DNA from: Halieaceae bacterium
GTDB lineage: Bacteria > Pseudomonadota > Gammaproteobacteria > Pseudomonadales > Halieaceae
Length of the DNA: 64,000 bases
Assembly: GCA_902520195.1 (NCBI GenBank)
Contig: CABYND010000003.1
Span: 62,001 to 126,000 of the forward strand
Direction of reading: 5' to 3'
Below the pieces are notes generated by a model, which saw only the letters and a list, made by a program, of their open reading frames with translations, was not told the DNA's origin and made no database searches. Position numbers and translations under genes: made by a program. This document shows positions 13,316-49,813 of this stretch, in pieces; within the stretch, counting starts at the first letter, position 1; the number at the start of each line of letters is the position of its first letter.

Positions 13316-13335
13316 AGTTCGGCTACTGTACAGCC

Positions 13336-15771: not shown

Positions 15772-15775
15772 AGGG

Positions 15776-16453
15776 TCATTCGATACCCGTCAAGCGGAGC
15801 CCGGCATGGGTTTTGTACTGTTTATTGATATTGATCAGCACGGAGGTGAGCGCCTCTGCCGCTGCGGCATTGTGGATGAGTCCTGCATGGAAGCCACGCA
15901 TCCCCATGGCCTCGATCAGATCGATCACACTCTGGCGCGCAGTCTTTTCGTTGCCGGTGACCAGCACATCGCAGGGAATATCCATATCGGCCTGTAAGTG
16001 CGCCGCCGCCACATTTTGTAGCGCACTGACCACCTGCACCTCTTCCCCCAGTAGCGTCTGGGCAATCATGCCAGCGCTGCCCTCTGGAGGTAATTGCACT
16101 CGCGCCACCCGCGGCGGCACCAACGGCACAGTCACGTCTACCACTACTTTACCCTGCACGGCGTTCTTAATGCTCTCCAACGTGGGGGTGTGCGCACCAA
16201 AAGGCACCGTCACAAAGACAATGTCACCCCGCTCTGCAGCACTTACGTTATCCAACCCCTCAATAGGCTGATGTGCAACACCACGACTGGCGAGCTCCGC
16301 CGTAAGCGCCTCGGCCGCTTCAACCGCCTGCTCCGGTTTTCTGGAACCCACCAGCACATCATGCCCGGCTTTGGCTAAACGCAGGGCCAAGCCACGGCCA
16401 AGATCACCAGTGCCACCGACGATTCCGATCGATGGTGTTGTATTGGAAGACAT
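15776..16453 (-). CDS. npdG: F420:NADPH oxidoreductase
   Basis: A 225-residue Rossmann protein with SIGIVGGTGDLGRGLALRLA near the N-terminus and VGSRKPEQA, the NADP-binding signature of the F420-dependent NADP reductase family. It exchanges hydride between NADPH and F420 and so supplies reduced F420. I chose the ATG at 16453, 8 nt after AGAGG; an ATG two codons upstream abuts that site. It is the first gene of the F420 operon and is divergent from a Baeyer-Villiger-type monooxygenase across 219 bp. Confidence 0.9.
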   Translation of the reverse strand: MSSNTTPSIGIVGGTGDLGRGLALRLAKAGHDVLVGSRKPEQAVEAAEALTAELASRGVAHQPIEGLDNVSAAERGDIVFVTVPFGAHTPTLESIKNAVQGKVVVDVTVPLVPPRVARVQLPPEGSAGMIAQTLLGEEVQVVSALQNVAAAHLQADMDIPCDVLVTGNEKTARQSVIDLIEAMGMRGFHAGLIHNAAAAEALTSVLININKQYKTHAGLRLTGIE

Positions 16454-16672
16454 ATTCATAACCTCTATTGTGGCGACATCGTTGACAAGGTTCAGAGCCT
16501 TGGCGATAGTGGTATCGGCGACTTGCTGAACACAAGTAAGTTTAGCTCAGACTGGCTTGAGACAAGAGCCCAAAGACAAGAAAAACGGCGGAGCAACCGC
16601 TGGTCGCAATCAACATGAGTGTACTGGAGTATCGACCTCTGGGCAGGGTTTCCGGGGAGCAGGAGAATTTTT

Positions 16673-18295
16673 ATGAGCAGCAACCATTCTGCAGACTACG
16701 ATGTGATCGCCGTTGGCGCGGGTTTTGCCGGCATATCGCTGAGCTACCACCTTCGAGAAGCGGGCTTTAACGTCAAGGTATTTGATCGGGCCAGCGATGT
16801 GGGCGGCACTTGGGCATGGAACAAATACCCCGGGGCAGCCACAGACAGCGAGTCCTATTACTACTGCTTAACCTTTTCAAAAGAGGTGCTGCAAGAGTGG
16901 TCCTGGAGCAAACGCTACTCGGGTTGGGAAGAGACACAAAACTACCTGAAATTTGTCATGGACAAGTTTTCACTCTGGCCCATGTTCCAACTGAACACCG
17001 AAGTCGAGAGCGCCGAGTTCGACAACGAAACCGGCCTATGGAATATCCGCACCCAGGGGGGAGAAACCCACACCGCCAAGTACTTTGTCAGCGCCATGGG
17101 CATGATTTCGCAGCCCGTGCTGCCCAACATTGCTGGACAGGACCGCTTTAATGGTCCGATCTTCCACTCCTCCCGATGGCCAGAAGGCCTCGACGTGGCA
17201 GGCAAGCGCGTCGGCATCATTGGTGCGGGTGCCACCACGGTACAAATGTTACCCGAGGTCGCGAAAACCGCCGCGCAGGTCACGGTATTCCAGCGCACAC
17301 CCAACTTTGTGCTGCCCGCTATGCAAAAGGACATGACGCCTGAGTGGGAAAAAGAGATCAAAGACAATTACGACGAAATCATCGCCAAAGCGCGCAACCA
17401 CATGTTCGGCATGGCCTTTGAGCAACCCCCGGGGCGCAATGCCGTCGATACCCCACCGGAAGAGGTCCAACGCATCTTTGAAGAGCACTGGAACGGCAGC
17501 TTCCGCTGGGTATTCGAAACCTTCGACGATCTGCTGGGTAGCGCCGAGGCGAACCAAATGGCCTCTGACTTCATCACCAGCAAAATCAAAGAGAAGGTCA
17601 GCGATCCCGAGCTGGCCGAGTTGCTGACACCCAAGGGCTATCCGCTCTTTGCAAAGCGCCCGCCTCTGGACCACGGTTACTACGAGGCCTATAACCGCGA
17701 CAACGTCAAGCTGGTCGACATCAAAGATCGTGAGCCGATCCAGGAGATCACCGAAACCGGCATTCAGACCAGCGAGAATCTGTTCGAGTTTGACATCATC
17801 GTATTGGCAACCGGCTTTCAGGCCTACACCGGAGCGCTGGAAGCGATCGACATTCGCGGCAGCGACGGGCACACGCTGCGCGAGAAGTGGGACGACGAAT
17901 CCAAGTCCATTATGGGCGTCTACGCCGCAGGCTACCCCAACTTCTTTATGATTACCGGCCCTCAGGCACCCTTCGCTAACCTGCCAACATCCATCGAGCA
18001 GAACGTAGCCTACATCGCGGACTGCATCCAAAAGATGGAGTCGGAGGGCTATGACCTCTTCCAGCCAAGCCAGGAAGCAGAAGACGAGTGGTCAGCGCAC
18101 ACTGCCGAAATTCACGAGCAAACGCTGATGGCCCAGGGAGATAAGGTGAACTCATGGATGATGGGCGCCAACCTCGAGAAGAGAAAGCCGCGGGTGCTAG
18201 TCTACTTTGGTGGCGCACACATCTACTACGACAAGTTGCGAGAGTCAGCAGACGGCGGCTTCCCGGAGCTGTCCTTCAGCAAAAGCGCTGCCTGA
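16673..18295 (+). CDS. Baeyer-Villiger-type flavin monooxygenase
   Basis: A 540-residue FAD/NADPH monooxygenase. The first Rossmann motif GAGFAG is at 15-20, and the Baeyer-Villiger fingerprint FNGPIFHSSRWP at 159-170 matches FxGxxxHxxxWP exactly. The second Rossmann motif GAGATT follows shortly, and VLATGFQA is present near residue 380. Such enzymes insert oxygen next to a ketone to give an ester or lactone, often on cyclic or steroidal ketones. The start at 16673 follows GGAGCAGGAG. It is divergent from the F420 operon and uses FAD, so F420 is not its cofactor; a functional link is unproven. Confidence 0.92.
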   Translation: MSSNHSADYDVIAVGAGFAGISLSYHLREAGFNVKVFDRASDVGGTWAWNKYPGAATDSESYYYCLTFSKEVLQEWSWSKRYSGWEETQNYLKFVMDKFSLWPMFQLNTEVESAEFDNETGLWNIRTQGGETHTAKYFVSAMGMISQPVLPNIAGQDRFNGPIFHSSRWPEGLDVAGKRVGIIGAGATTVQMLPEVAKTAAQVTVFQRTPNFVLPAMQKDMTPEWEKEIKDNYDEIIAKARNHMFGMAFEQPPGRNAVDTPPEEVQRIFEEHWNGSFRWVFETFDDLLGSAEANQMASDFITSKIKEKVSDPELAELLTPKGYPLFAKRPPLDHGYYEAYNRDNVKLVDIKDREPIQEITETGIQTSENLFEFDIIVLATGFQAYTGALEAIDIRGSDGHTLREKWDDESKSIMGVYAAGYPNFFMITGPQAPFANLPTSIEQNVAYIADCIQKMESEGYDLFQPSQEAEDEWSAHTAEIHEQTLMAQGDKVNSWMMGANLEKRKPRVLVYFGGAHIYYDKLRESADGGFPELSFSKSAA

Positions 18296-36615: not shown

Positions 36616-37695
36616 CTAATTTGCGGCAATACAACCCGCCTCTGTAAGCGTTGGTTGTATTTCTTTTGCGAACCGATGCAAATCATCTAAGTACTCAGGA
36701 AATGTAAGCATCACCGCGTTGACGCCGGCTCGATGTGCTTCGATAAGTTGTTCTGCAACATCGGCAGCACTACCGACCATGTGCACACCACCACCAGAAG
36801 CCGCCAACATGTCACTGGTAAAGACGTCAAAAGAGCCGCTTCCAGCAGTTAGATCATGAAGCCAGTTTGCTGTAGCGACTTCATCCTTCTCAGAGATAAT
36901 CGACGCAAGCCGATCCTCGGCCTCGACACGGGATTCTCCCCAGATCAGGAAAGGGAAGATCGCAGTTTTGACTGAACGCCCAAAAACTTGGGCCTTAAGA
37001 GCGATATCGTCAATGATGGAGCCCACCACGTCGATTGAAGGAGTGGAGATAAAAGCCCAATCGCACAACCTAGCCGTCATATTTTTTGCGTCCTCCGATA
37101 CGCCAGCATTTGCAATCATAGGAGGCACCTCAGGTACAGGAGAGGCCTGTCCTCCACTGACTGAGTACCAGTCGCATTCGTAGTTAAATGGCTGATCTTC
37201 AGCAGACCACAGTTTTTTGAGGATTTCGATGAAACAACTGGTCCGCTCGTAACGACGAGTGTGCTCTGCGAGCGAGATACCCATCATGCCAAACTCTCTC
37301 TCGCTCCAGCCGCTCACAACATTCAGCCCCCATCTGTTACCGCTCATATGTGAGAGGGTGGCCCCCATCTTGGCAACGACGAAGGGGTGAAAGAGAGGGA
37401 TATGAACAGTGGAGAACACATTAATGGAACTGGTCGCTCGCAAGAGTGCGGCTGCCCAGGTCGTGGTCTCGAGCGAAGTACCGAGAAAATTGGTCTCTCC
37501 ACCAAAACCTCGCCAACGCGAGACTGGGAACAAATATTCAAAGCCATAACTTTCTGCAGCTAGCGCAAGAGACTCGTTATGCTCGTATGTCCATTGATCT
37601 TTAACGACGCGGTGGGTCGAGATCGAGGGCATGTTAGAACAATTGGGCATGAACAAACCCAGAGCGAGCTTTTGAAGCTGTTCAGTCGGCATCAT
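36616..37695 (-). CDS. Luciferase-like monooxygenase (SsuD/RutA type)
   Basis: A 359-residue TIM-barrel flavin monooxygenase with LGLFMPNCSNMPSIS, a strand-2 FPVSRWRGFGG, INVFSTVHIPLFHPFVVAKM, GLNVVSGWSEREFGMMG and ANAGVSEDAKNM, all typical of the FMNH2-dependent SsuD/RutA/SfnG branch. It should use reduced flavin from a separate reductase; F420 use is less likely than for the protein at 24514. Its ATG directly follows the P450 stop codon. It is the last gene of the six-gene minus-strand operon and may cleave a C-C, C-N or C-S bond after P450 hydroxylation. Confidence 0.9.
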   Translation of the reverse strand: MMPTEQLQKLALGLFMPNCSNMPSISTHRVVKDQWTYEHNESLALAAESYGFEYLFPVSRWRGFGGETNFLGTSLETTTWAAALLRATSSINVFSTVHIPLFHPFVVAKMGATLSHMSGNRWGLNVVSGWSEREFGMMGISLAEHTRRYERTSCFIEILKKLWSAEDQPFNYECDWYSVSGGQASPVPEVPPMIANAGVSEDAKNMTARLCDWAFISTPSIDVVGSIIDDIALKAQVFGRSVKTAIFPFLIWGESRVEAEDRLASIISEKDEVATANWLHDLTAGSGSFDVFTSDMLAASGGGVHMVGSAADVAEQLIEAHRAGVNAVMLTFPEYLDDLHRFAKEIQPTLTEAGCIAAN

Positions 37696-38946
37696 TCATC
37701 CCCGCAGGGTGACTCGCAGATCCTCGTAACCGCGAAACAAGAAGGCACCTCTGAGTCGCGCTGACTCGGTATCGACAGAGAAGTTGGGGTATCGTGAGAA
37801 CAACTCTTCCAGGAATATTTTGCCCTCCAAACGAGCGAGCGCCGCACCAACACAGTAGTGAATCCCGCCCCCGAAGGTGAGCGGCTTTTGTGATCTGGGG
37901 CTGATATCAAAGGACTCTGGATTGTCGAAGTGACGTTCGTCTCGATTAGCAGCCGCAACGATAGTTAAAACACGCTCTCCAACCTCAATCTTTTGTCCGG
38001 CGACCTCTCTAGGTTCCAGAGCAGTGCGATACGTCGCCTGCAAAGATGACTCAAATCGGAGAATCTCTTCGACCGCTGCATCCACCAAATTCATATTGTG
38101 CCGCAACTTAAGTCGCTGCTCTGGGTTGTCGCCAAGACAAAATAACCCGTTTCCGATCATGTGGGCTGTAGTTTCAAACCCGGCGCCGAATAGTCCAATG
38201 ACAGAGGTGCTCAGCTCTTCTGGTGTTAAAGCATCCTCACCATCGCCAGCGCTGACCATTGCGGTAGTGAGGTCGTCTCGGGGATGCTTCTTTCTTCTCT
38301 GAAAGAGCTCGTCGAAAAATTCGGTCAAGAACTCCATCTGCCGATTAGCCAGCGCTAATTCATCTGGCTCAAGCGCACGCGTTTCAAAAACGGGGAAAGT
38401 GTCTGCCACTGCCTGATTGAGCTCGGCCAGAAGCTCCCAGGAAAACTCCCCTTCTTGCATGCCCAGCATGTCGCACATCACTAGCGTAGGAAACAAGTAG
38501 GCGAAGTCGGTGATGAAGTTCGCATCTTCGCGCTCAGCAAACTTCTGTAACTGTTGCTGTGAGAGGCGCCTTATCCGTGGCGCCATTTCCGTAATCCGCT
38601 TGAGCGACAGCGCGCTCGCTACTAGGTCTCTCACTCTGGTGTGTTGTGGCGGATCCTGCATAACGAAAACCCGAGAGAGCCAAGCGTAGGCAGGCTGCGC
38701 TAAGACATCGAATGAGTCGTCGTAGAAAAGCTGAATATTTTTGACAAAATCGCCCTGCCCGAAAGACTTATCTATGAGGATCGAGCGACAGTCATCGTAA
38801 CGAGTAGCAACCCAGAAGCCGAGTTCAGACCGGTGGATGGGGTCTGTTTCACGCATTTCTCGGAATATGGGGTATGGATCCCGAAGCATATCGGGATCCA
38901 TTGGGTTGAAATTAAAACCAGTCACTACTCTAGTTCCGCGCCGCAA
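37696..38946 (-). CDS. Cytochrome P450 (bacterial class I)
   Basis: A 416-residue soluble P450. FGGGIHYCVGAALARLEG places the haem thiolate at Cys365, GAGFETTAHM is the I-helix oxygen-activation motif, and EEILRFESS is the K-helix. The N-terminal MDPDMLRDPYPIFREMRE is normal for the family. The start is uncertain: TTG at 38946, or GTG at 38925 giving MTGFNFNP; neither has a good ribosome-binding site. It lies 8 bp after the TonB receptor gene and abuts the LLM gene, so it is firmly part of this operon. It probably makes the first hydroxylation of the imported substrate. Confidence 0.92.
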   Translation of the reverse strand: MRRGTRVVTGFNFNPMDPDMLRDPYPIFREMRETDPIHRSELGFWVATRYDDCRSILIDKSFGQGDFVKNIQLFYDDSFDVLAQPAYAWLSRVFVMQDPPQHTRVRDLVASALSLKRITEMAPRIRRLSQQQLQKFAEREDANFITDFAYLFPTLVMCDMLGMQEGEFSWELLAELNQAVADTFPVFETRALEPDELALANRQMEFLTEFFDELFQRRKKHPRDDLTTAMVSAGDGEDALTPEELSTSVIGLFGAGFETTAHMIGNGLFCLGDNPEQRLKLRHNMNLVDAAVEEILRFESSLQATYRTALEPREVAGQKIEVGERVLTIVAAANRDERHFDNPESFDISPRSQKPLTFGGGIHYCVGAALARLEGKIFLEELFSRYPNFSVDTESARLRGAFLFRGYEDLRVTLRG

Positions 38947-38954
38947 GTTCTGCG

Positions 38955-41147
38955 CTAGAACTGATAGGTAACGGTCGCTCCGTAGGTGCGTGGGGGAAGC
39001 ACTGCGCCCACCCGAAGCGAATCATACAGAGGCGCAGTGATGATGTTGTTAGACATCACTTCTTCATCACTTAAATTACGACCCCACAGGCTGAGCAACC
39101 ATTGGTCATTCCATGAATAATCTACCGATGCGTTAATTTGCTCGTAGGATTTTTGGTACGCATCCTCTCGGTTCCACTCCGTGAAGTACACATCATCCTG
39201 ATAGTAAGCCTCGCCTCGAACAGTCAACGTGCCGCCACCAACAGCGCCCTCCCACGTCAGTCCCAGCTTTGCTGTGCTCTCGGGTGCGTTAGGGAGCGTA
39301 TTGCCACTGAGATCAGTGATCGCAAAGCCATTGGCATAATCACCATTGAAAAACTCCTGATACTCAGCATTGAGGTACGTCAGATAAAAATCAAACGCGA
39401 AACCGTTACCGAGGCTACCGTCGACCTCTAGTTCAATCCCTGAATTTTCCGCTTCTGCCGCGTTAACTGTCGAGACGGTGCTGGTCTCATCCACAAAGGA
39501 AATCTGCATGTCCTGATAGTCATAGAAAAATGCTGCGACGGAGTAACGTAGCGTCCCGCTCGCGTTTTGCCCCTTCAGGCCCACCTCAAAGGCATCGACA
39601 GTCTCTGGATCGAGCGGCGGGCTAGTGCTACCCGTATTTATCACGCCTGACTTAAACGCCTCCGTATAAGTCGCATAAAGAAGCATGTTGTCGTTTGGAG
39701 AGTATTGCAGCGTAATTCTGGGGGTTAGATCATTCCAACTCTCTCGCTGGTTGGTCGGAACATTGAGAGAGATCGCATCAAAAATGAAAGAGCCAGTCCC
39801 ATCTCTCTCCTCATAGTTGTAGCGCAGACCAGCAATCACCGACCATTTGTCAGAAATACTGTAATTCGCCTCGACATAAGCACCCCAGGCTTCAATATCC
39901 ACATCGCCATCTTGCAGGTAATTGCCTCCATTAAGAAAATCGCCAACCGGGGTCCCGCAAGCTGCGGGCGCAAGCAAGAAACACAAATTAGTCAGGGGAA
40001 CTCTGACTTCACCATACAGATCCTCTTCAAAATACATCACCCCACCCAGCACATCGAGCCGGTCTGCCGAGTAGTTGAGGATCAGCTCCTGTCCAAACGA
40101 GTCGCTTTCTTCGGTGTAATTATTCTGACCAAACAGGTTGGCATCCGTTGAATCCAGGTCATCTCTCAGAAAGCGATCCATACTCTGAGAGGAGGTAATG
40201 GATTTGAGACTCCAGCGGTCGTTGAAGGCATAATCAATAGTGAGGTTGATCAATTGCCCGTCGCGATCGTTAATAGGCTCCTGGTCGGAGTTGATATCGT
40301 AAAATCCACCACCCGCCATACCCACGGTATTGCCGCCAAGAATAGGCACGCCAAAGGGTACAGGTATGCTCGAACCCTCGGACTGGCCGAAATAACTGAA
40401 GGCATAGTTATTGTCGTCTTCCTCATAGTATTGAGCAGAAAGGGTTGCGGTTAGGGGCCCGCCGGCGTCATAGACGAACGTTGCGCGGTAGGCACTGGCA
40501 TCCCGATCGTTGATGTCTGAGCCGGTGAAAATGTTATTGCCGTAACCATCCCTGCTGTCCAGACTTCCCGCGAGTCGCATCGACAACGCATCGCCCATCG
40601 GCACATCAATGGCGCCCCTGAACTGCGCAAGGCCGTAGTTACCCGCCGTCACACTCAAGTATCCGCCAAGCTCTTTGCCGGGCTTGGCCGTTACCATATT
40701 AATTGCGCCAGCTGTGGCACCACGACCGTAAAGAGTACCCTGCGGACCTCGCAGCACTTCGACTTGATCCAGATCGAACATACCCATTAACTGAGCTGCT
40801 GGGCGAGGCACAATCGCGCCGTCCTGGAGGAATGCCACTGCGCCCTCACCGCCAATGTCGATACTGGTCATGCCGATGCCACGCATAAAGACACGAGCGA
40901 AACCAAATTGATCGCCCAGAGACAGGTTTGGTATGTCAACCTGCATGTCACGCACTTCCTGAATCCCACCGGGACCTAACTTATCGGCGCCCAAAACGTT
41001 GGCAGATCCCGCAAGGTCTTGGAGCGCAACAGTGCGTTTAGTAGCGGTCACCACTACTTCCTCTAAACTGTTGTCCTGCGCCAGAACACCCGCAGAGCCG
41101 GTCAGAAATATCACCCCTAAACCCAGTAACGGCCCATAATTACTCAT
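38955..41147 (-). CDS. TonB-dependent outer-membrane receptor
   Basis: A 730-residue receptor. Signal peptide to about residue 24 (GVLAQ), TonB box LEEVVVTATKR, plug VEVLRGPQGTLYGRGATAGA and a barrel ending YGATVTYQF with the terminal Phe. I chose the ATG at 41147 (MSNYGPL), with GGGAGTG nine bases upstream; the in-frame ATG at 41165 is less well placed. It lies 47 bp behind a CoA ligase gene and 8 bp before the P450. Being inside the catabolic operon, it is very likely the uptake protein for that pathway's substrate. Confidence 0.92.
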   Translation of the reverse strand: MSNYGPLLGLGVIFLTGSAGVLAQDNSLEEVVVTATKRTVALQDLAGSANVLGADKLGPGGIQEVRDMQVDIPNLSLGDQFGFARVFMRGIGMTSIDIGGEGAVAFLQDGAIVPRPAAQLMGMFDLDQVEVLRGPQGTLYGRGATAGAINMVTAKPGKELGGYLSVTAGNYGLAQFRGAIDVPMGDALSMRLAGSLDSRDGYGNNIFTGSDINDRDASAYRATFVYDAGGPLTATLSAQYYEEDDNNYAFSYFGQSEGSSIPVPFGVPILGGNTVGMAGGGFYDINSDQEPINDRDGQLINLTIDYAFNDRWSLKSITSSQSMDRFLRDDLDSTDANLFGQNNYTEESDSFGQELILNYSADRLDVLGGVMYFEEDLYGEVRVPLTNLCFLLAPAACGTPVGDFLNGGNYLQDGDVDIEAWGAYVEANYSISDKWSVIAGLRYNYEERDGTGSFIFDAISLNVPTNQRESWNDLTPRITLQYSPNDNMLLYATYTEAFKSGVINTGSTSPPLDPETVDAFEVGLKGQNASGTLRYSVAAFFYDYQDMQISFVDETSTVSTVNAAEAENSGIELEVDGSLGNGFAFDFYLTYLNAEYQEFFNGDYANGFAITDLSGNTLPNAPESTAKLGLTWEGAVGGGTLTVRGEAYYQDDVYFTEWNREDAYQKSYEQINASVDYSWNDQWLLSLWGRNLSDEEVMSNNIITAPLYDSLRVGAVLPPRTYGATVTYQF

Positions 41148-41194
41148 TCCCGTGGTCACTCCCATTCCATATCTATTCGATAGTTGTTGCGCAG

Positions 41195-42820
41195 CTAGCT
41201 AACTTTTTTCTCTCTTTTAAAACTGATGTTGTGCTGGTCTCGATCCCAAGTATCCGGTGTGACACCCTGAGATCTCAGAATATGCTTCATGACTTTGGAT
41301 GACGGCGTTTTGGGCAATTCCTCAAGAACCCTGATGTACCTCGGCACCATGAAATAGGGCATTCTGTCACCCAAAAAATTTATGAGGCTAGTCTGATCAA
41401 TATCTTTGCCCGCTACAGCAGCAACAGAAATCATTACATCATCTTCACCTAGGTCGCTCGGTACAGCGTAGGCGGCAGCTTCCCGAACATCGGGGTAGGC
41501 AACGACCTCAGCCTCTACCTCGAAAGATGAAATGTTCTCCCCGCGACGACGCATGGCATCTTTCATCCGGTCGACGAAGTAAAAGTAGCCCTCCTCGTCC
41601 TGCCGAAAGCAATCACCGGTGTGAAACCACCCGTTTCGCCAAGCCTCGGCAGTAGCCACCGGATTTTTGTAATAACCGCTATTCATACCCCACGGTCGAT
41701 CGGTTCTTAGAATCATTTCACCGATCTCCCCAAGCGCCACCTCGCAGTCATTTCCATCAACGAGCCTCACGTCTACACCATCCCTTTTCTTACCACAGGT
41801 TCCGCGCTTAGTCGGATTGGGCCCGGAGACAATGGGCGACGAAATTTCGGTCATATTAAAAATTGTGTAAACGTCAATCCCAAACCGCTCATAAAACTCG
41901 GTGCAGGTCTCAGTTAACGGCACCATGAATGCCAGGCGGACACTATGGTCCTTGTCATGCTCGGAGGGTTCTTGTTTCAACAAAAACGTGGTCATCACTC
42001 CGAGCAGGAAAAAGGCGCTGGTGCGGCTCTCCCTTACAAAAGGCCAAAACTTTTCGGTGTCGAAACCGTCCATCACAGCGATCGATCCGCCTCGGCATAG
42101 CATGACAAAGATCACACCCATGCCACCTATATGAAAGATAGGCATATTGATGAGAAAACGATCCTCGCCAGTTACAAAATGCCACGTTTCCGGCCCGGCG
42201 TTAGTAAAGATGTGGAGATAAGACGACAGCACACCCTTGGACGGGCCCGTTGTCCCGGAAGTAAAGATGATCGACTGCGTATCCCACGGCTCAATAGGCT
42301 TGAGTAAATCGGGGGGCTCAGACGCGTCGCTGATAACGGCTGAGAAATCTACAAACTCATAATCGGTTGCGGCCGTGTTATCGCCTAGATGAATGACTTT
42401 GGCAATCTGCGCTGTTTCTACTGCATCAAGGCGCTCCAGTAATTGACCATGAGCAACCATCACGGTCGCGTCTGAAACGTCTAAAACATGACTGAGCACC
42501 TGCCCCTTATAAGCGGTATTGAGGGGAACAAATACAGCGCCCAGGTAGTTGATAGCAAAGAAAGTCAGAATGGCCTCCTTACTATCAAACATCCATACGG
42601 CAACATGGTCACCCTGCTTGACGCCATGCACGTCGAAGCCCGCCGCCAAGGTCCTGACTTTCCTTCTGACCGCCTCGTAAGACCAAACCTCTCCGTCCTC
42701 AAATACGGCAAATTCTTTTTCTGGCTGCGTTTTCGCGAAGTCGTCCAATAAATAACGGGTAACGCAACGCTCCCTTGGCAGCACTCTGGGATCTGTGGTC
42801 ACAGCTTGCTCAACACTCAT
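41195..42820 (-). CDS. AMP-forming acyl-CoA ligase (CaiC-like)
   Basis: A 541-residue acyl-CoA synthetase. The P-loop IIFTSGTTGPSKGV and the adenylation motifs GWFHTGDCF and FVDRMKDAMRRRGENIS are intact, and the C-terminal Lys lies in ELPKTPSSKVMKHILR. The sequence resembles carnitine/crotonobetaine-CoA ligases and other short or branched acid ligases more than long-chain enzymes. Its start overlaps the TetR gene by 11 bp. It is the logical entry to the CoA-level steps performed by the divergent mutase operon. Confidence 0.93.
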   Translation of the reverse strand: MSVEQAVTTDPRVLPRERCVTRYLLDDFAKTQPEKEFAVFEDGEVWSYEAVRRKVRTLAAGFDVHGVKQGDHVAVWMFDSKEAILTFFAINYLGAVFVPLNTAYKGQVLSHVLDVSDATVMVAHGQLLERLDAVETAQIAKVIHLGDNTAATDYEFVDFSAVISDASEPPDLLKPIEPWDTQSIIFTSGTTGPSKGVLSSYLHIFTNAGPETWHFVTGEDRFLINMPIFHIGGMGVIFVMLCRGGSIAVMDGFDTEKFWPFVRESRTSAFFLLGVMTTFLLKQEPSEHDKDHSVRLAFMVPLTETCTEFYERFGIDVYTIFNMTEISSPIVSGPNPTKRGTCGKKRDGVDVRLVDGNDCEVALGEIGEMILRTDRPWGMNSGYYKNPVATAEAWRNGWFHTGDCFRQDEEGYFYFVDRMKDAMRRRGENISSFEVEAEVVAYPDVREAAAYAVPSDLGEDDVMISVAAVAGKDIDQTSLINFLGDRMPYFMVPRYIRVLEELPKTPSSKVMKHILRSQGVTPDTWDRDQHNISFKREKKVS

Positions 42821-43523
42821 CTTGCTTGCCTCCCACGGGGCTGATGGATCTTACAGACGGGATATTTCCGAGTTGGCCCACTGAACCATCCAACGGGCGA
42901 AAAGCCTTTTTTGAGGCAACGATCGTGAAAATCATCTCCAATACATGTGTCAGTATTTCCAGCTTCGATCGTTTGCCATCCGGCGAATACCAGAGCGAAA
43001 CCCAGGTGACTACTCCGCCAATGGTGTTAGCGGTTAACAGAGGGTCAGAGACCTGAAACTCACCTGTTTGATCGCCTTCACGAAGCAAATCAGCTAACTG
43101 ATGATCGAACAGCTTCCGCTGTTCTCTGATCTCCCTCGCCTCCGCGGGCCGCAGATTTTTCTCCTCTCTCGTGTAAACCACGATAAATTTTTGATGCTCG
43201 AAAATGACCTCCAGTACCGATTCTGCCAGGCACTGCAATCTCTCAGTAGAGGGTCGCGGCTGGGAGCATGCAGCACTCACTGCATCAAGAGAGAGCGCGA
43301 TACCGGTGCGGCAAATATCGAAGAGAAGCTCTCCCTTGTTGTCGTAGTGCTTGTATAAAAAGGGTTTGGTTACCTTAAGACGCTTCGCTATGGCGTCGAG
43401 CGTCGTGCTCTCGTAACCCAACTCGTAGAACAGGTTGCAAGCTTCTTCACGAATCCTTTTCTTCTTAAAGTCCGACACTTCATCTTTCAGATCAAAGTCA
43501 GGCTGGAGGATTGCCTTAATCAT
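42810..43523 (-). CDS. TetR-family transcriptional regulator
   Basis: A 237-residue regulator. The N-terminal helix-turn-helix spans KKRIREEACNLFYELGYEST to TKPFLYKHYDNKGELLFDI (about 20-70), and a C-terminal ligand-binding domain follows. It ends with a disordered tail after about residue 215. It lies between the iron alcohol dehydrogenase (3 bp) and the CoA ligase (11-bp overlap), so it is expressed from the promoter it probably controls. The perfect inverted repeat at 44738-44754 in the divergent promoter gap is a good candidate operator. Acyl-CoA or the substrate itself may be the inducer. Confidence 0.9.
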   Translation of the reverse strand: MIKAILQPDFDLKDEVSDFKKKRIREEACNLFYELGYESTTLDAIAKRLKVTKPFLYKHYDNKGELLFDICRTGIALSLDAVSAACSQPRPSTERLQCLAESVLEVIFEHQKFIVVYTREEKNLRPAEAREIREQRKLFDHQLADLLREGDQTGEFQVSDPLLTANTIGGVVTWVSLWYSPDGKRSKLEILTHVLEMIFTIVASKKAFRPLDGSVGQLGNIPSVRSISPVGGKQDEC

Positions 43524-43526
43524 GCT

Positions 43527-44705
43527 TTAGAGCGCCATCTCCAAAATACCGCGCACATCCTCGGGTCCACTTATTTCTCTGGGGTTGGTGCGAGACCAAA
43601 AATCCAGCATGGTGTACTCAGCGATCAGGTCCAGTTGATCTTCAGTGATGCCCACAGCGGTCAGACTTCGCGGCATTCCCAGACCCGTAATGAATTCATC
43701 GACAATCTCGCTTGCTGCGCGGTCCGGCTGGCCCAGACAGGCACTGATTTGCTTCTGCTTCTCACCGTTAACGGATTGATTGAAAGCAAGTACCGAGGGG
43801 GCCATTACGCAAGAGCAATAACCATGAGGTACATCAGCGGTGCCGCCCAGTACGTGCCCGATGGCATGACTCGCGCCCATGGGCACACCACCAATGACTG
43901 GAATCATAGATTGCCAAGCACCTACCTGGCATCGCAGACGCGCATCCAGATCCGTGCCATCGGCTTTTACCTCCGGCAGTGCACTACCTAACAATCGGAG
44001 CGCACTGCCTGCAATGCCGTCACAAAAATGGTTTGAGTGTGTGGAGCCCAGGGCTTCAAGGGCGTGATCCAGGGCTCTGACACCGGTAGAGAACCACAGC
44101 CATTCGGGAGTATGTATTGTGAGAGCAGGGTCAAGAACGATCGCGATCGGCGCCATCATCCTGTGCGTATAGCCCTGCTTTTTATTCTCTTTGTCATCCG
44201 TCACCCCACCCATGGTGTTGAATTCACCACCCGACAAAGTCGTTGGACAACAAATGACTCTTATCTCCGGCGCGTCAAATTGCGGAACAACCGTTTCACC
44301 CGCTTCATCGACATAAACATAGAACCCCTCGAAATCCTCATGCTTTTCAAAGCCGTGTTTTAACCCCAAGGCAACTACTTTGCCCGCGTCGGTGACCGAA
44401 CCACCGCCCACAGTAATGATGAGGTCAGCGTCAACAGCGCGGGCTTCCTCCAGCGCGGCGAGAACATCTGATCTAGGCCCATGGGCCTTGATGCCATCGA
44501 AAACACAGGCTAGGGAGTCACCCAAAGCTGCTTCGATATCGCTGATGTCAGTGGTGGTAGTTCTGAGGGTCGTGCTAACCAGCAAAAAGACGCGCTGTGC
44601 ACCCAGCGTCTGAACTTCCTCTGCCAGAGCCTCAGCCGCTCTGCGGCCAATATGCACTCGTTCAGTCGCTGTTAAACCCAGCGTGGCGCTGTTAGCAGAA
44701 AACAT
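43527..44705 (-). CDS. Iron-containing alcohol dehydrogenase
   Basis: A 392-residue group III alcohol dehydrogenase / maleylacetate reductase-type protein. GGGSVTDAGK is the NAD-binding turn, CCPTTLSGGEFN is the family signature, and the metal ligands appear in RALDHALEAL, GASHAIGHVLGG and PHGYC. It oxidises an alcohol or reduces a keto-acid or aldehyde with NAD(P). It is the first gene of the six-gene minus-strand operon, starting 116 bp from the divergent mutase start. A role after P450 hydroxylation is plausible. Confidence 0.9.
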   Translation of the reverse strand: MFSANSATLGLTATERVHIGRRAAEALAEEVQTLGAQRVFLLVSTTLRTTTTDISDIEAALGDSLACVFDGIKAHGPRSDVLAALEEARAVDADLIITVGGGSVTDAGKVVALGLKHGFEKHEDFEGFYVYVDEAGETVVPQFDAPEIRVICCPTTLSGGEFNTMGGVTDDKENKKQGYTHRMMAPIAIVLDPALTIHTPEWLWFSTGVRALDHALEALGSTHSNHFCDGIAGSALRLLGSALPEVKADGTDLDARLRCQVGAWQSMIPVIGGVPMGASHAIGHVLGGTADVPHGYCSCVMAPSVLAFNQSVNGEKQKQISACLGQPDRAASEIVDEFITGLGMPRSLTAVGITEDQLDLIAEYTMLDFWSRTNPREISGPEDVRGILEMAL

Positions 44706-44737: not shown

Positions 44738-44754
44738 AGTATCAATGTGATACT
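44738..44754. promoter_or_regulatory. Inverted repeat, probable TetR operator in a divergent promoter
   Basis: AGTATCA-ATG-TGATACT is a perfect 7-bp inverted repeat with a 3-bp spacer. It is centred in the 116-bp gap between the iron alcohol dehydrogenase (minus) and mutase (plus) genes. Size and symmetry suit a TetR dimer, and a TetR gene is the second gene of the minus-strand operon. Binding is inferred. Confidence 0.6.
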
Positions 44755-44821: not shown

Positions 44822-46453
44822 ATGCAAAAAAAATCCACCGACAAGGCGGTCTTCTCTCGCTCCGGAATAGAACTCAAATCATTTTACACCGGTGATGATA
44901 TTCCTGATGAACACAGGGATCGGGCCGCGGCGGCACCTGGCGAGACGCCCTACCATCGTGGCTTTCACCCATCCGGATATCGCAGTAAGCCCTGGAGAAT
45001 CTTTCAACTCAGCGGCTTCGGTAAACCCGAAGACGAGAATGAGCGCATTAAGTTTCTGCTGAAAAATGGCGAAACGGGCTTCATCATGGAGCATGATCGC
45101 AACACCGCCGATCACTGCTACAACGTCGACCACCCAGAAGTTGTGGCGCGGCGCGAAGATGTTGGATTAACCGGGGCCGTCATGCAAAGTGTTCGCGACA
45201 CAGCCATCTGTATGGACGGCTTGCCTGTGGACAGCAGCTTCGGCCACGCAGGGGGCGCCGTTGTTCAACACGCGCCCTTCGCCCTCGCCGCCTACTGGAC
45301 CGTTGCCAAACAGCGAGGATTTAACCTCGCAAAATTACCCGGCACGGGTCAGAGCGACTTCAATCTGACGTACTTGGGATGTGTGACCAAGGAGCAGATC
45401 CCGACGCTGCCGGGTCTCCGATTCAATGCCGACATCATTGAATTCTGCGATCGCTACCTGCCTTATTGGGTACCAGTGTCAATAGCCGGCTATAACGCGG
45501 CCGACACTGGTCTCAGTCCAGATCAGGAGTTGGGCGTCCTCTTCGCCAATGCCGTTGAATATCTCGATGAAATCAAGAGAAGGGGTAGCGTAGATCTGAC
45601 CAAAGCCGCCAAAGCCTGCGGTGGCGTGAGCTTCAGGGCCTCGATCGAATTTATCGAGGAGGCCTGCAAAATGAGGGCCGCCAGGCTGATGTGGGCTGAC
45701 CTCCTACGAGAGCGCTACGGCATAACCGACCCCAAAGTGGCCAATCTGCGAATCCACTGCGTTACCGCGGGATCAAAAATGACCTACCAACAGCCGCTGA
45801 ACAATATTGTCAGAGGCACCTTGATGGCCCTTGGAGCTGTTTTTGGCGGAGTGCAGTCACTCGGCGTGTCGGGTTACGACGAGGCCCTGTCAATTCCCTC
45901 AGAACATGCGCACCAAATGTCGGTGAGGATTCAGCAGATTCTTCAGGAAGAAACAGGAATAGCCAACGTTACGGACCCGTTGGGCGGTTCGTATTATGTC
46001 GAGACACTCACTGCTCAGCTAGCTGAGAAGGCTTGGGAGTTTTTTGAGGAAATTCAAAACCAGGGCGGCTACTTGGCCACTTTAGATTCAGGTTGGTTGC
46101 ACGCGCGCGCCGCAGAGAATCAATATCAAGAGTTCATGGACATGGAAAACGGCGACCAGCAGGTGATCGGCGTGAATTGCTTTCAGGACGACGAATCACC
46201 CTTCGAGGTGGATGGCTTCATGGGAACCGATGACGCCTTTGATGTGGCAACAGCGCGTCTTAATGACGTTCTCAGAACCCGTCATGAGAAGGCTGCAGCC
46301 TCCGCTCTGAAGCAGCTCGAGGCTGATTGCCGCAGTGATACAAATATCATGCCCGCGATGATGGAAGCGATGTCGGCTGAAGTCACACTGGGCGAAATCG
46401 GTAACGTCTACAGAGAAGTTTTTGGCAACTGGAATACGCCGATTCAGATGTGA
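44822..46453 (+). CDS. B12-dependent acyl-CoA mutase, large subunit, atypical active site
   Basis: A 543-residue catalytic subunit of the methylmalonyl-CoA mutase superfamily. Conserved landmarks include KPWRIFQLSGFG, SIAGYN, TYQQPLNNIVRGT and DPLGGSYYVE. Like isobutyryl- and 2-hydroxyisobutyryl-CoA mutases it lacks a fused B12 domain, which is the next gene. By-eye alignment to propionibacterial MCM gives Tyr75 to His49, Arg82 to Lys56, Arg87 to Phe61, Tyr89 to Leu63, Arg207 to Val188 (or Cys187) and His244 to Asn225. About four extra residues lie in EHDRNTADHCYNVD. It should therefore not act on methylmalonyl-CoA. A branched or quaternary acyl-CoA lacking a free carboxylate is my inference. 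Confidence 0.88.
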   Translation: MQKKSTDKAVFSRSGIELKSFYTGDDIPDEHRDRAAAAPGETPYHRGFHPSGYRSKPWRIFQLSGFGKPEDENERIKFLLKNGETGFIMEHDRNTADHCYNVDHPEVVARREDVGLTGAVMQSVRDTAICMDGLPVDSSFGHAGGAVVQHAPFALAAYWTVAKQRGFNLAKLPGTGQSDFNLTYLGCVTKEQIPTLPGLRFNADIIEFCDRYLPYWVPVSIAGYNAADTGLSPDQELGVLFANAVEYLDEIKRRGSVDLTKAAKACGGVSFRASIEFIEEACKMRAARLMWADLLRERYGITDPKVANLRIHCVTAGSKMTYQQPLNNIVRGTLMALGAVFGGVQSLGVSGYDEALSIPSEHAHQMSVRIQQILQEETGIANVTDPLGGSYYVETLTAQLAEKAWEFFEEIQNQGGYLATLDSGWLHARAAENQYQEFMDMENGDQQVIGVNCFQDDESPFEVDGFMGTDDAFDVATARLNDVLRTRHEKAAASALKQLEADCRSDTNIMPAMMEAMSAEVTLGEIGNVYREVFGNWNTPIQM

Positions 46454-46474
46454 TTGAGCGCTGGGGGGATTAGA

Positions 46475-46852
46475 TTGCAAAAGCGGATACTGATGGCCAA
46501 AACCGGCCTCGACGGCCACTGGCGCGGCCCCACTATCGTCGCCAGAGCACTTCGTGATGCAGGCTTTGAAGTGATAATGATCGGCATGGCCAACACCGAT
46601 GACATTGTCACATCGGCGGTAGATGAAGACGTTGACCTCGTAGGCCTCAATGTCGGCGGTCACATTGATGTGGCAATCAGGGCGATCGAGAGCGTGCAGC
46701 GTGCTCGCCCCGAACTGCCGATATTTGCCGGCGGCACAATTACTCCCCGAGCTGCCAAACAACTTGAGGCCTTGGGAGTGGAGGTTTACCCGCCCGGGTC
46801 TCAATTAACGGATATCGTAGACGCCGCCAAGCGTCTTACCGACAAAAAGTAA
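46475..46852 (+). CDS. B12-dependent mutase, cobalamin-binding small subunit
   Basis: A 125-residue B12-binding Rossmann protein. GLDGHWRG contains the His that ligates cobalt from below, GLNVGGHID is a shortened version of the usual Ser-x-Leu loop, and FAGGTI is the conserved Gly-Gly segment. I start it at TTG 46475, behind a GGGGGG stretch, because its product begins with the usual strand LQKRILMAKTGLDGH; an in-frame TTG at 46454 is also possible. It pairs with the large subunit 21 bp upstream, and its stop lies 5 bp before the GTPase gene. Confidence 0.9.
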   Translation: MQKRILMAKTGLDGHWRGPTIVARALRDAGFEVIMIGMANTDDIVTSAVDEDVDLVGLNVGGHIDVAIRAIESVQRARPELPIFAGGTITPRAAKQLEALGVEVYPPGSQLTDIVDAAKRLTDKK

Positions 46853-46857
46853 GAACG

Positions 46858-47811
46858 ATGACCGAGGCAACTACGCAGACGTTACTCGCGTCTGCTCTAA
46901 ATGGAGATCGCTCTAGCCTGGCCCGCCTTCTCAGCCACGTAGAACGAGACCCGAGCGCGGAAGCAGAGATACGTGCCGGTCTCGCCAACATGAAGACTGA
47001 ATCGGTAGTGATCGGGGTAACTGGGCCGCCAGGTGCTGGCAAGTCTTCTCTCATTAGCGCGCTACTGCCTCACACAACCAAATCCTTTGACAGGACCGCC
47101 GTGCTGGCCGTGGACCCCTCATCGCCCTTCTCAGGGGGTGCATTACTCGGTGATCGTGTCCGAATGCAGAACCACGATTTAGGTGATCGGGTGCTCATCC
47201 GCTCAATGGCATCAAAAGGCGAGAGCGGCGGACTGGCGAGGGCCGCGGCAACGGCGATTCAGGTGCTGGCAGCCTGCGGTTGGCCACTGATACTGGTGGA
47301 AACCTTGGGCATTGGTCAGGTAGAACTGGACGTGATGGATTTGGCGACGGTGGTAGCCGTGGTGCTCAACCCTGGTTGGGGAGATACCTTTCAGGCAAAC
47401 AAAGCGGGCCTCACTGAAGCGGGCGACGTCTTCGTTATTAACAAAGCTGACAAAGATGGCGTTCAACAGACCCGTGCCGACCTGCAAGATTCTTTATCAT
47501 TATTGCAGTCTCCAGTGCCTATCCAGATTTTCGAAACCATAGCTGTGAATGAAGACGGTGTCGCTGCGCTGTGGCAAGGGATCGAGACATATTTAGCCGA
47601 CGCGCAGACGACCGGGCTTCAAGAACAAAAGCAACGTATCAGACGTCGCCGCTTGCTAATCAGAATATTACAAAGCGGCTGTGAAGCTCGAATAGACGCC
47701 TACTGTTGCAGTGACCACGGCAGTGCTCAGGTAGATAGAGCGCTGGCGGGTGAACTGTCCATTGAGGCGCTGCAAGCAGACCTGTTTGCAAGCATATCTC
47801 AACCCGGATGA
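46858..47811 (+). CDS. MeaB/ArgK-type GTPase, mutase chaperone
   Basis: A 317-residue G3E-type GTPase. The P-loop GPPGAGKSS is at about 55-63, then VDPSSPFSGGALLGDRVRM, SMASKGESGG, ETLGIGQVE (switch region, commonly ETVGVGQSE) and NKAD. These proteins load adenosylcobalamin into acyl-CoA mutases and remove damaged cofactor. The gene lies directly after the small subunit, so it most likely serves this mutase specifically. Confidence 0.93.
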   Translation: MTEATTQTLLASALNGDRSSLARLLSHVERDPSAEAEIRAGLANMKTESVVIGVTGPPGAGKSSLISALLPHTTKSFDRTAVLAVDPSSPFSGGALLGDRVRMQNHDLGDRVLIRSMASKGESGGLARAAATAIQVLAACGWPLILVETLGIGQVELDVMDLATVVAVVLNPGWGDTFQANKAGLTEAGDVFVINKADKDGVQQTRADLQDSLSLLQSPVPIQIFETIAVNEDGVAALWQGIETYLADAQTTGLQEQKQRIRRRRLLIRILQSGCEARIDAYCCSDHGSAQVDRALAGELSIEALQADLFASISQPG

Positions 47812-47835: not shown

Positions 47836-48972
47836 ATGCCCACGCAAAATGACGAAGCTCTTACGATTTTTCAGAATAGCCTCGCTACGTTTCTGGACAC
47901 AACTGCGCCACCTGAGGCCATCGAACGCTGGAATCAGAACAAGCAGGTAGATCGTGATGCCTGGTTGGCTGCTGGCGAGTTTGGGATGCTCGGCGTTCTG
48001 GTACCGGAAGAACATGGCGGTCTGGGCGTGGATTTTCGCTACGAGCGAGCAATCATGGAAGCCTTCGCCGAGCGAGGCCTTGAGGGATGGGGTGTGCCAG
48101 TGCATAACATGATCGCAGCCCCTTACCTGATCGAGCATGGGACACCAGACCAAAAAACCCAGTGGCTACCCAGGGTTGTCTCCGGCGAGACGATCTTAGC
48201 GATCGCGATGACCGAGCCTGGCGCTGGGTCCGACCTGCAGGGCATGCGCACCCGCGCGGTTCGCAATGGTGACGAGTGGATTATCAATGGCAGCAAGGTA
48301 TTTATCTCAAACGGCCAGATGTCGGATTTGGTATTGCTGTGCGCAAAAACCGAAATGGAAGACGGCCCAGATAAGATTTCGATTTTCTTGGTCGAGGGCG
48401 ACCGGCCGGGGTTTAAGCGGGGCAAAAATCTCGACAAGGTCGGGCGCGATGCTCAGGACACGTCTGAGCTCTTTTTTGAGGATGTCCGACTTCCAATGAG
48501 CAATGTGCTGGGAGGGGTGCCCGGGAAAGGTTTTGCCCAATTGATGGAGCTGTTACCCCAAGAACGACTGGGTATTGCCGTGATGGGTCTAGGCATGCTC
48601 GAGCGTGCTCTCAATCTCACCGTTGAGTACACCAAGGAACGGCAGGCTTTTGGCCAGTCATTATTCGACTTTCAAAATACTGCATTTTCATTGGCCGACA
48701 TTAAAACGGAGGTCACCATTGGTAAGGCCTTCATAGACCACTGCACTGATTTACTGATCAAAGGTGAGTTGGATGCGGCGACCGCGTCGATGGCAAAACT
48801 CTGGATTACCGAACGCGAGTTAGACGGCATAAACCGGTGCGTACAGTTTTTCGGTGGCTATGGCTGGATGAATGAGTACCCTATTGCCCAGCTTTATAAA
48901 GACGCGCGCATCGACACCATTCATGGAGGCACCTCTGAGATCATGCGGCTACTGATCGCACGCTCAATATAA
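47836..48972 (+). CDS. Acyl-CoA dehydrogenase
   Basis: A 378-residue acyl-CoA dehydrogenase: MTEPGAGSDLQGMRTRA binds the flavin, EWIINGSKVFISNG follows, and the C-terminal domain contains QFFGGYGWMNEYPIAQLYKD and HGGTSEIMR. The usual catalytic Glu of the YEGT position is Gly here, as in long-chain and isovaleryl types whose base is on another helix. It begins 24 bp after the GTPase gene. It probably introduces the double bond after the mutase rearrangement, passing electrons to ETF. Confidence 0.92.
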   Translation: MPTQNDEALTIFQNSLATFLDTTAPPEAIERWNQNKQVDRDAWLAAGEFGMLGVLVPEEHGGLGVDFRYERAIMEAFAERGLEGWGVPVHNMIAAPYLIEHGTPDQKTQWLPRVVSGETILAIAMTEPGAGSDLQGMRTRAVRNGDEWIINGSKVFISNGQMSDLVLLCAKTEMEDGPDKISIFLVEGDRPGFKRGKNLDKVGRDAQDTSELFFEDVRLPMSNVLGGVPGKGFAQLMELLPQERLGIAVMGLGMLERALNLTVEYTKERQAFGQSLFDFQNTAFSLADIKTEVTIGKAFIDHCTDLLIKGELDAATASMAKLWITERELDGINRCVQFFGGYGWMNEYPIAQLYKDARIDTIHGGTSEIMRLLIARSI

Positions 48973-49021: not shown

Positions 49022-49813
49022 GTGACCGATGCACTACTCCAAGAGCTGAGAGGTGACACACTCTGGTTAACTCTCAACCGACCCAACGAACTTAACGCGA
49101 TGAATAAGCCCTTGGTGAGCGCTTTGCGAGATACGTTTGAGGCTCTTAGTAGCCGACACGAGGTGCGTATTGTTGTTCTTCAAGCAAAAGGCAAAGCTTT
49201 TTGTGCAGGGCTAGACTTGCAGTCAGAAAGTTGGGGAGATGATGCCTCACCGCAGGCTCTGCTCGCTATGCAGCGTGACATATCTGATATCTATCGGGCA
49301 ATGCGCCGCTGTCCGCAGCCCATCATCGCTCTGATCCAAGGCGCTGCCTGCGGGGGTGGATTTAGCCTAGCGCTCGCATCAGACATACGGATAGCCGCAA
49401 CGACTGCAAAAATGAATGCCGCCTTCATACGCGCGGGTTTAACCGCGTGCGATATGGGTTGCAGTTACTTATTACCTAGACTCGTCGGCTTGTCAGTGGC
49501 TAGCGAGCTGATGATGACCGGGAAATTCATCAGCGCTGAAAGAGCACTGAGAGTAAATTTAGTCTCCGAGGTCGTCAGCGAGCAGGAGCTCGCCAATACC
49601 GCCGAGCGGTACGTTGCTGACATGCTGGCAACGTCACCGATGGGTTTGCGGTTAACCAAGGATGGGTTGAACTTTAGTGTCGACGCGCCCTCTCTAGATG
49701 CCGCCATGGCGCTGGAAGACCGACAGCAAGCGCTCGTTGCAGGTTCGGCTGACGCGAGAGAGGCGATCAATGCGTTTTTGGAAAAAAGAGCACCCATTTG
49801 GAAAAACCAATAG
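49022..49813 (+). CDS. Enoyl-CoA hydratase/isomerase (crotonase) family protein
   Basis: A 263-residue crotonase-fold protein with LTLNRPNELNAMNK, KGKAFCAGLDL and GAACGGGFSLALASDIRIA, which forms the oxyanion hole. The two Glu residues of true hydratases are not evident: the segment FIRAGLTACDMGCSYLLPRLVG has Phe and Asp/Met at those places, as in some isomerases and actinobacterial EchA proteins. It starts at GTG 49022. It follows the acyl-CoA dehydrogenase by 49 bp and probably hydrates or isomerises the enoyl-CoA product. Confidence 0.88.
   Translation: MTDALLQELRGDTLWLTLNRPNELNAMNKPLVSALRDTFEALSSRHEVRIVVLQAKGKAFCAGLDLQSESWGDDASPQALLAMQRDISDIYRAMRRCPQPIIALIQGAACGGGFSLALASDIRIAATTAKMNAAFIRAGLTACDMGCSYLLPRLVGLSVASELMMTGKFISAERALRVNLVSEVVSEQELANTAERYVADMLATSPMGLRLTKDGLNFSVDAPSLDAAMALEDRQQALVAGSADAREAINAFLEKRAPIWKNQ

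Follow-up and report, generated by a model that had tools for sequence, protein, structure and literature searches.

A coenzyme B12-dependent acyl-CoA mutase with a rebuilt active site, encoded in a conserved gene cluster of marine Halieaceae and probably acting on an unusual substrate

Genes at the mutase locus

The window, which is the whole stretch of 64,000 nucleotides analysed, belongs to a MAG that is 69% complete, and its closest matches among named genomes are records titled Halieaceae or Luminiphilus. The gene at positions 44822-46453 of the forward strand encodes a protein of 543 amino acids, which is assigned as MutL, the large (substrate-binding) subunit of a mutase with an altered active site, from its PF01642 match, a residue map and an AlphaFold2 model. 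MutL scores 462.9 bits against PF01642 (cut-off 22.1) over the full domain length in the Pfam search, and 382 bits against TIGR00641 (cut-off 304) in the NCBIfam search. These scores bear out the assignment to the acyl-CoA mutase superfamily that had been made from the DNA sequence alone. The score against NF006944, the equivalog model of methylmalonyl-CoA mutase (MCM), is 341 bits and lies far below the cut-off of 876. The AlphaFold2 model has a pLDDT of 88.8 and a pTM of 0.90. HcmA (4r3u) is the best match among solved structures both in fold (Foldseek TM-score 0.92-0.93, a fold-level comparison) and in sequence (316 bits against the PDB).

Two genes that would complete the mutase follow on the same strand. 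The gene at 46454-46852 encodes MutS, the B12-binding small subunit of 132 amino acids, which contains KTGLDGHWRG and matches PF02310 (69 bits) and TIGR00640 (89 bits, cut-off 57); its start codon is TTG as listed, and the true start is uncertain. The gene at 46858-47811 encodes a MeaB-type GTPase, a probable mutase chaperone, with 218 bits against PF03308 and 233 bits against TIGR00750, just below the cut-off of 241. Orthologs of MutL are found at 41 loci from named genomes, and the gene content of these loci is counted as homologs with at least 40% identity within flanks that differ in length. The KxxxDGHxxG motif of MutS is present at 40 of the 41 loci and absent from the truncated L069, and a MeaB homolog is present at 34. 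Further downstream lie genes for an acyl-CoA dehydrogenase (ACAD) at 47836-48972 (+; PF00441, PF02770 and PF02771; 6 of 41 loci) and for a protein of the enoyl-CoA hydratase/isomerase family at 49022-49813 (+; PF00378, 171 bits; 22 of 41 loci).

The genes on the other side of mutL are all encoded on the reverse strand. The nearest one, divergent from mutL, encodes an iron-containing alcohol dehydrogenase (FeADH) at 43527-44705 (PF25137 and PF00465; 36 of 41 loci), for which the best NCBIfam model is 4-hydroxybutyrate dehydrogenase, far below its cut-off. It is followed by genes for a TetR-family regulator at 42810-43523 (PF00440 and PF17932; 35 of 41), an AMP-forming acyl-CoA ligase (ACS) at 41195-42820 (PF00501 and PF13193; 35 of 41), a TonB-dependent receptor at 38955-41165 (PF00593 and PF07715; 31 of 41), a cytochrome P450 at 37696-38946 (PF00067, 115 bits; 13 of 41) and an LLM-class flavin monooxygenase of the RutA/SfnG group at 36616-37695 (139 bits to each of RutA and SfnG; 19 of 41). 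The last protein scores 202 bits against the NCBIfam model of SfnG, below the cut-off of 383. In 11 of 42 stretches, the surroundings of the mutase gene also encode a lactonase-like MBL hydrolase, akin to acylhomoserine lactonases and organophosphorus hydrolases. This neighbourhood indicates that MutL functions in catabolism, as judged from gene content. The TonB-dependent receptor is not a BtuB-type B12 receptor, since its score is 60 bits where the cut-off is 600, and neither a cobalamin riboswitch nor any other Rfam family is found at the gathering threshold between 30000 and 64000.

A perfect 17-bp palindrome, AGTATCAATGTGATACT, is located at 44738-44754 between the FeADH gene and mutL. 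Its pattern, which was picked after it had been sighted at the locus and before the shuffle test, has a single match in the window and none in 100 shuffles, and the palindrome is partly retained in close relatives. It would fit a candidate operator of the TetR-family regulator.

Five loci (L061, L065, L066, L067 and L071) are without homologs of FeADH, the TetR-family regulator, the ligase and the TonB-dependent receptor at 40% identity or above. Three of these five are alphaproteobacterial and carry an aldehyde dehydrogenase gene after mutS. These three (L065, 7270-7995; L067, 7240-7941; L071, 2754-3449) also encode a conserved protein of about 240 amino acids directly upstream of mutL; it has no significant Pfam match, and one row matches B12-binding_2 at an E value of 0.05, below the cut-off.

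Farther away in the window, at 10910-16459, ORFs resembling enzymes of F420 biosynthesis (a CofG/H-like fusion and CofC-, CofD- and CofE-like proteins) and an NADP-F420 reductase are recognised by eye, the host being a gammaproteobacterium. F420 is rejected as a fixed partner of the mutase, as the cofH family is above its cut-off in only 8 of 16 carrier genomes.

A related gene module that lacks the mutase

A search of plasmids with FeADH and the ligase reveals a related module. The best matches are encoded on plasmids of Polymorphobacter PAMC 29334 (60% identity for FeADH and 64% for the ligase, which is in two pieces and unannotated there) and Novosphingobium EMRT-2 (57% and 59%, respectively). 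Both sphingomonad plasmids carry the genes for FeADH, the TetR-family regulator and the ligase together with homologs of the TonB-dependent receptor, the P450 and the MBL hydrolase, in a cluster that does not include the mutase. The best matches of the last three proteins to those of the mutase loci show 53-64% identity. Both clusters also encode an FAD enzyme, and that of Polymorphobacter scores 227-229 bits against cyclohexanone and phenylacetone monooxygenases. No counterpart of this Baeyer-Villiger-type enzyme is found within the flanks of the 41 mutase loci. Its only match, with 29% identity, is encoded in the window about 27 kb from the mutase, where an FAD monooxygenase of the Baeyer-Villiger kind at 16619-18295 shows 28-30% identity to the FAD enzymes of the sphingomonad and Tistrella clusters that lack the mutase. 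For the quinone oxidoreductase, hydroxy-acid oxidase, esterase and CoA-transferase encoded in the sphingomonad clusters, no more than a single weak match is found.

Rebuilt active site of MutL

The residues are numbered according to P. shermanii MCM, with the numbering fixed on the 5req chain (titled Y89F mutant), and the positions compared are those that we take, from the MCM literature, to line the active site. MutL carries the changes R87F, Y89L, A116E, F117H, L119R, S162H, S164G, R207C, H244N and S285G, which correspond to F61, L63, E90, H91, R93, H142, G144, C187, N225 and G268 of MutL, respectively. It also has H49 for Y75, K56 for R82, R59 for T85, I88 for S114 and V314 for Q330. In contrast, Q177 (Q197), Y224 (Y243), H312 (H328) and E354 (E370) are retained.

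These residues were compared among 41 distinct family sequences, which are the window protein (P0001) and the proteins from every named-genome locus except the truncated L069 (40 of 41). The positions of Gln197, Tyr243, His328 and Glu370 are retained in all 41 sequences. R59, F61, L63, M89, E90, H91, R93, H142, G144, C187, K190, N225 and G268 of MutL are likewise invariant in all 41. This pattern is not due to chance, because it is invariant in 41 sequences with pairwise identities down to 59%. The background consists of 50 mutases, mostly MCMs, with 2-hydroxyisobutyryl-CoA mutases (HCMs), IcmF, ECM-like proteins and uncharacterised groups, the beta subunit being omitted; it was set against 34 family rows, whereas the residue counts within the family cover all 41. 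Arg87 and His244 are each retained in 49 of the 50 background mutases, Ser164 in 48, Thr85 in 46 and Tyr89 in 40. Phe occupies position 89 in four background rows, one being the 5req mutant itself, and Asp occupies the Glu90 position in four. L098 is the single background row in which neither Arg87 nor His244 is present. MutL is under purifying selection, with a dN/dS of 0.03 to its 98% relative L032; six other pairs gave no value, their synonymous sites being saturated.

The sequence-only reading had found nearly every residue that defines MCM specificity to be replaced, and its alignment by eye proves right, because the residue map of the 41 family and 50 background mutases agrees with it. 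The replacements of Tyr89 by Leu63, Arg87 by Phe61 and His244 by Asn225 are all recovered and occur in 41 of 41 family members, and in no alignment made are Arg, His or Tyr restored at the positions in question. Arg207 had been paired with either Val188 or Cys187, a doubt that is explained by one residue inserted after Cys187; the aligned residue is Cys187 (41 of 41), and neither of the two is Arg. The proposed replacement of Tyr75 by His49 is correct for MutL of the window but is not a signature of the family, in which His, Tyr and Phe occur in 26, 12 and 3 sequences, respectively. Likewise, Leu at the Tyr89 position does differ from Phe of IcmF and Ile of 4r3u as claimed, but it is not unique, being present in Xaut_5043 (1 of 50 background rows). 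Of the roughly four extra residues noted in the segment facing the substrate, one follows Thr95 and three lie immediately ahead of Asp113; the invariant Lys190 occupies an additional inserted position.

Tyr89 and Arg207 presumably contact the carboxylate group of the substrate in MCM, and their loss argues against a malonyl-type substrate. It is possible that the gained Arg59, Arg93, Lys190, His91 and His142 interact with a distal carboxylate group on the substrate.

Distribution and phylogeny of the MutL family

Orthologs of MutL are present in 11 of 58 related genomes, among which 10 of the 37 genomes of the genus are carriers, the window's own genome being counted. Of 43 loci from named genomes, 41 encode orthologs with 61-98% identity, and the other two encode proteins with 29-30% identity. 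Among 390 genomes of the order, 8 carry orthologs (own genome counted), as do 3 of 337 genomes of an alphaproteobacterial draw, these three being the same genomes as in the named-genome set. A draw of 398 genomes of the phylum contains no further orthologs. The best match in the plasmid search shows 37% identity, and phage records give two matches only (28-31%). No sequence with an identity between 39% and 61% is found within the score limits of the genome and plasmid searches. An assembly artefact is ruled out, because the gene recurs at the 41 named-genome loci, for example in Pseudohaliea rubra, Kineobactrum sediminis and Haliea alexandrii. A second, MCM-like mutase gene is present in 9 of the 11 carriers among the related genomes and in all three named genomes checked; the two carriers without it are incomplete MAGs, one being that of the window.

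The MutL family forms one clade with 100/100 support in both IQ-TREE trees, which include 34 and 16 family rows, respectively, and its stem measures 2.69 changes per column in the first tree and 2.92 in the second. MCM, HCM, ICM and ECM form separate, well-supported groups in the second tree (HCM 100/98), the ECM rows being named by length and clade rather than by assay. In this tree, the odd or long rows L094, L091, L098, L089 and L074 were omitted and the MCMs were thinned. Thus, the family is not placed inside a characterised mutase clade, which would have spoken against a mutase with an undescribed substrate. The AU test, which covered five joint clades, gives p-AU values of 0.25 for the family with alpha36, 0.18 with HCM, 0.17 with ICM, 0.09 with the TRAP-type group and 0.043 with MCM. 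Several placements of the family stem at its deep join are therefore compatible, and IQ-TREE warned of long branches. The trees were built without named sequences of RcmA, IcmA, MatB/ActD or a proven pivalyl-CoA mutase, and Xaut_5043 is included in the first tree only, on a long branch.

One member of the genus (G031) has two nearly equally close mutase copies on contigs C63 and C58. The operon of L059, which comes from a MAG titled Klebsiella pneumoniae, is 74% like that of Halieaceae, and the title is probably wrong because of this similarity.

Proposed function of MutL

MutL lacks the tested defining features of MCM, HCM, ICM and ECM. It is a member of the CoA-carbonyl mutase superfamily, and it probably works in the way that other members do. 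In this class, the 5'-deoxyadenosyl radical takes a hydrogen atom from the carbon next to the thioester-bearing one, and the CO-SCoA group migrates. MutS carries B12, which is probably loaded by MeaB. In line with the chemistry of the class, a radical 1,2-migration of the CO-SCoA group would convert a branched acyl-CoA to a straighter one, which is fit for beta-oxidation. The main reading, to which a probability of about 0.6 is assigned, is that MutL is the catalytic subunit of an AdoCbl-dependent CoA-carbonyl mutase that represents a subfamily of its own, that its substrate is probably unlike those of MCM, ICM, ECM and HCM, and that its operon serves import, oxygenation, activation and rearrangement. 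MutL probably rearranges a carbon skeleton outside the range of the known mutases of this kind, because the active site is rebuilt identically in every copy examined. Methylmalonyl-, isobutyryl-, ethylmalonyl- and 2-hydroxyisobutyryl-CoA are probably not its substrates, and we infer that it acts on a substrate that has not been described.

The order of events may be as follows. The TonB-dependent receptor would import a hydrophobic compound, which the P450 and the LLM-class monooxygenase would oxygenate. In some species, the lactonase-like hydrolase would open a lactone. FeADH would then oxidise an alcohol and the ligase would activate the resultant acid, which is finally rearranged by the mutase. 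For a cyclic ketone, the formation and opening of a lactone, oxidation of the hydroxy acid and activation with CoA would make a coherent route, and we infer such a route from gene content. It is opposed by the lack of a counterpart of the Baeyer-Villiger-type enzyme within the flanks of the 41 loci and by the LLM-class monooxygenase, whose closest relatives are RutA and SfnG rather than a ketone monooxygenase. It is also opposed by the fact that the lactonase, P450, LLM-class monooxygenase and ACAD are not universal among the loci, five of which lack the TonB-dependent receptor, the ligase, the TetR-family regulator and FeADH altogether. Our best guess of the substrate, although doubtful when taken by itself, is an oxygenated acyl-CoA with a methyl branch that originates from a terpenoid-like or alicyclic ketone and has its polar group bound by Glu90; the equivalent site in HcmA, Asp117, presumably holds the substrate hydroxyl group. 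Somewhat less doubtful, but still tentative, is the proposal that MutL represents a new functional class, in which oxygenated acyl-CoAs of alicyclic or terpenoid origin are rearranged in aerobic marine bacteria, and in which Glu90-His91-Arg93, His142 and Lys190 replace His244, Arg87 and Ser164.

To our knowledge, few substrates are established for B12-dependent acyl-CoA mutases. In the MutL family, no fewer than ten positions of the active site are changed together and invariant, and the family thereby provides a natural experiment on the requirements of the radical mechanism, and a new scaffold for engineers. Automatic annotation would probably assign these genes to propionate metabolism, because they match general MCM models. 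Instead, they point to an uncharacterised catabolic pathway of marine Halieaceae, and the conserved cluster around the rebuilt mutase is shared by these and a few other bacteria. Rational first-shell changes in the active site are reported to inactivate an HCM-type enzyme (PMC11599936). Further substrates and types of mutases do exist, as the mutases of matlystatin and actinonin (PMC5719088) and RcmAB (PMC7176365) show. The literature search, in which the top matches were considered for larger result sets, returned no description of the MutL family.

Comparison with known mutases and alternative explanations

IcmF resembles MutL as a member of the superfamily that has neither Tyr at position 89 nor Arg at position 207. 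However, it has Phe and Gln at these positions where MutL has Leu and Cys, retains Arg87 and His244, and forms one polypeptide with its GTPase. ECM retains Tyr89, Arg207 and His244, which are lost in MutL, and forms a separate clade. The uncharacterised TRAP-type mutases (L076, L084, L090 and L114) and alpha36 mutases (L118-L122) show about 32-38% identity to MutL, and the TRAP-type ones also have separate subunits and are encoded beside an enoyl-CoA hydratase; unlike MutL, both groups retain Arg87, Tyr89, Arg207 and His244.

HcmAB (4r3u; L075 on a Methylibium plasmid; L088, Xaut_5021) resembles MutL in organisation, with separate large and B12-binding subunits and a MeaB gene nearby. HcmA, at about 32-33% identity, is the top PDB match of MutL by sequence and by fold, and the rows of its group share an acidic residue, Asp, at the Glu90 position (Ala116 of MCM). 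MutL may thus be a distant mutase for 2-hydroxyisobutyryl-CoA or a longer 2-hydroxy-2-methylacyl-CoA that functions in the manner of HcmA or RcmA, in which Asp117 and Ile90, two residues that we take to act as a pair in HCM, are replaced by Glu and Leu, respectively. A joint clade of the two groups is not rejected (p-AU 0.18). However, 4r3u has Ile and Asp where Leu63 and Glu90 are found in 41 of 41 family members, and MutL is not inside the HCM clade. Arg87, His244, Ser164 and Gln330, which all HCM-group rows retain, are lost in MutL, and Gln at position 207 of HCM is Cys in MutL. The HCM loci fetched also differ in neighbourhood, encoding a PaaK-like ligase and a cobalamin adenosyltransferase. 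An HCM-like function is therefore unlikely. Less likely still is the rearrangement of a pivalyl-like 2,2-dimethylacyl-CoA, with no oxygen next to the reacting carbon, in the degradation of gem-dimethyl terpenoids. Such a substrate, without a malonyl-type carboxylate, suits the loss of Arg207 and Tyr89, and the P450 and lactonase surroundings suit terpenoids. Xaut_5043 of Xanthobacter, a proposed native pivalyl-CoA mutase, shares with MutL Leu at the Tyr89 position, the separate subunits and the lack of Arg at position 207. At 31-32% identity to MutL, however, it retains Arg87 and His244 and has Leu at position 116 and Asn at position 207. The gained Glu90, His91, Arg93 and His142 would be unexpected around an acyl group of purely aliphatic nature, and no gene for a carboxylase or an HMG-CoA-lyase-like enzyme is noticed among the annotated neighbours.

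The loss of Arg87, His244 and Ser164, which nearly all other mutases examined retain, would also suit a relative that has little or no catalytic activity and instead serves in regulation or as a structural component. This is very improbable, because the new residues are invariant, dN/dS to L032 is 0.03, the MutS motif and MeaB accompany MutL at 40 and 34 of the 41 loci, and the Gln197, Tyr243, His328 and Glu370 positions are retained throughout. MCM shares these four positions and the superfamily with MutL, and MutL matches the general MCM models PF01642 and TIGR00641, as would be expected if it were an ordinary MCM that had been misaligned by eye. This explanation is ruled out by the active site, in which the changes at Tyr89, Arg207, Arg87 and His244 are confirmed, by the clade, which is separate from that of MCM (joint p-AU 0.043), and by the usual presence of an MCM-like gene in the same genome (9 of 11 carriers); the score against NF006944 also reaches only 341 of 876 bits. 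The identification of MutL as a mutase of a separate subfamily is preferred to all these alternatives.

Other unusual mutases

Several other unusual mutases were observed. L098 (1465-3216, reverse strand) of Haliea alexandrii encodes one of 583 amino acids, adjoined by a MeaB gene, with Thr at position 87, Val at position 89 and Glu in place of Ala116, the alignment of this long branch being uncertain. The alphaproteobacterial mutases encoded by L118-L122, with 35-37% identity, form another group, in which Asn114, Asn287, Ile328 and Gly330 are common to four of the five. An uncharacterised group is encoded on plasmids of Marinobacter, Sulfitobacter and Paraburkholderia (L076, 7905-10009; L084, 3374-5384; L082, 2295-4381), where the genes for an enoyl-CoA hydratase and a CoA transferase adjoin all three. 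TRAP transporter genes are present in L082 and L084, and a TRAP binding protein is encoded farther off in L076. The mutases of this group retain Arg207, Tyr89 and His244, and have Ala for Tyr243 and Gly for His328.
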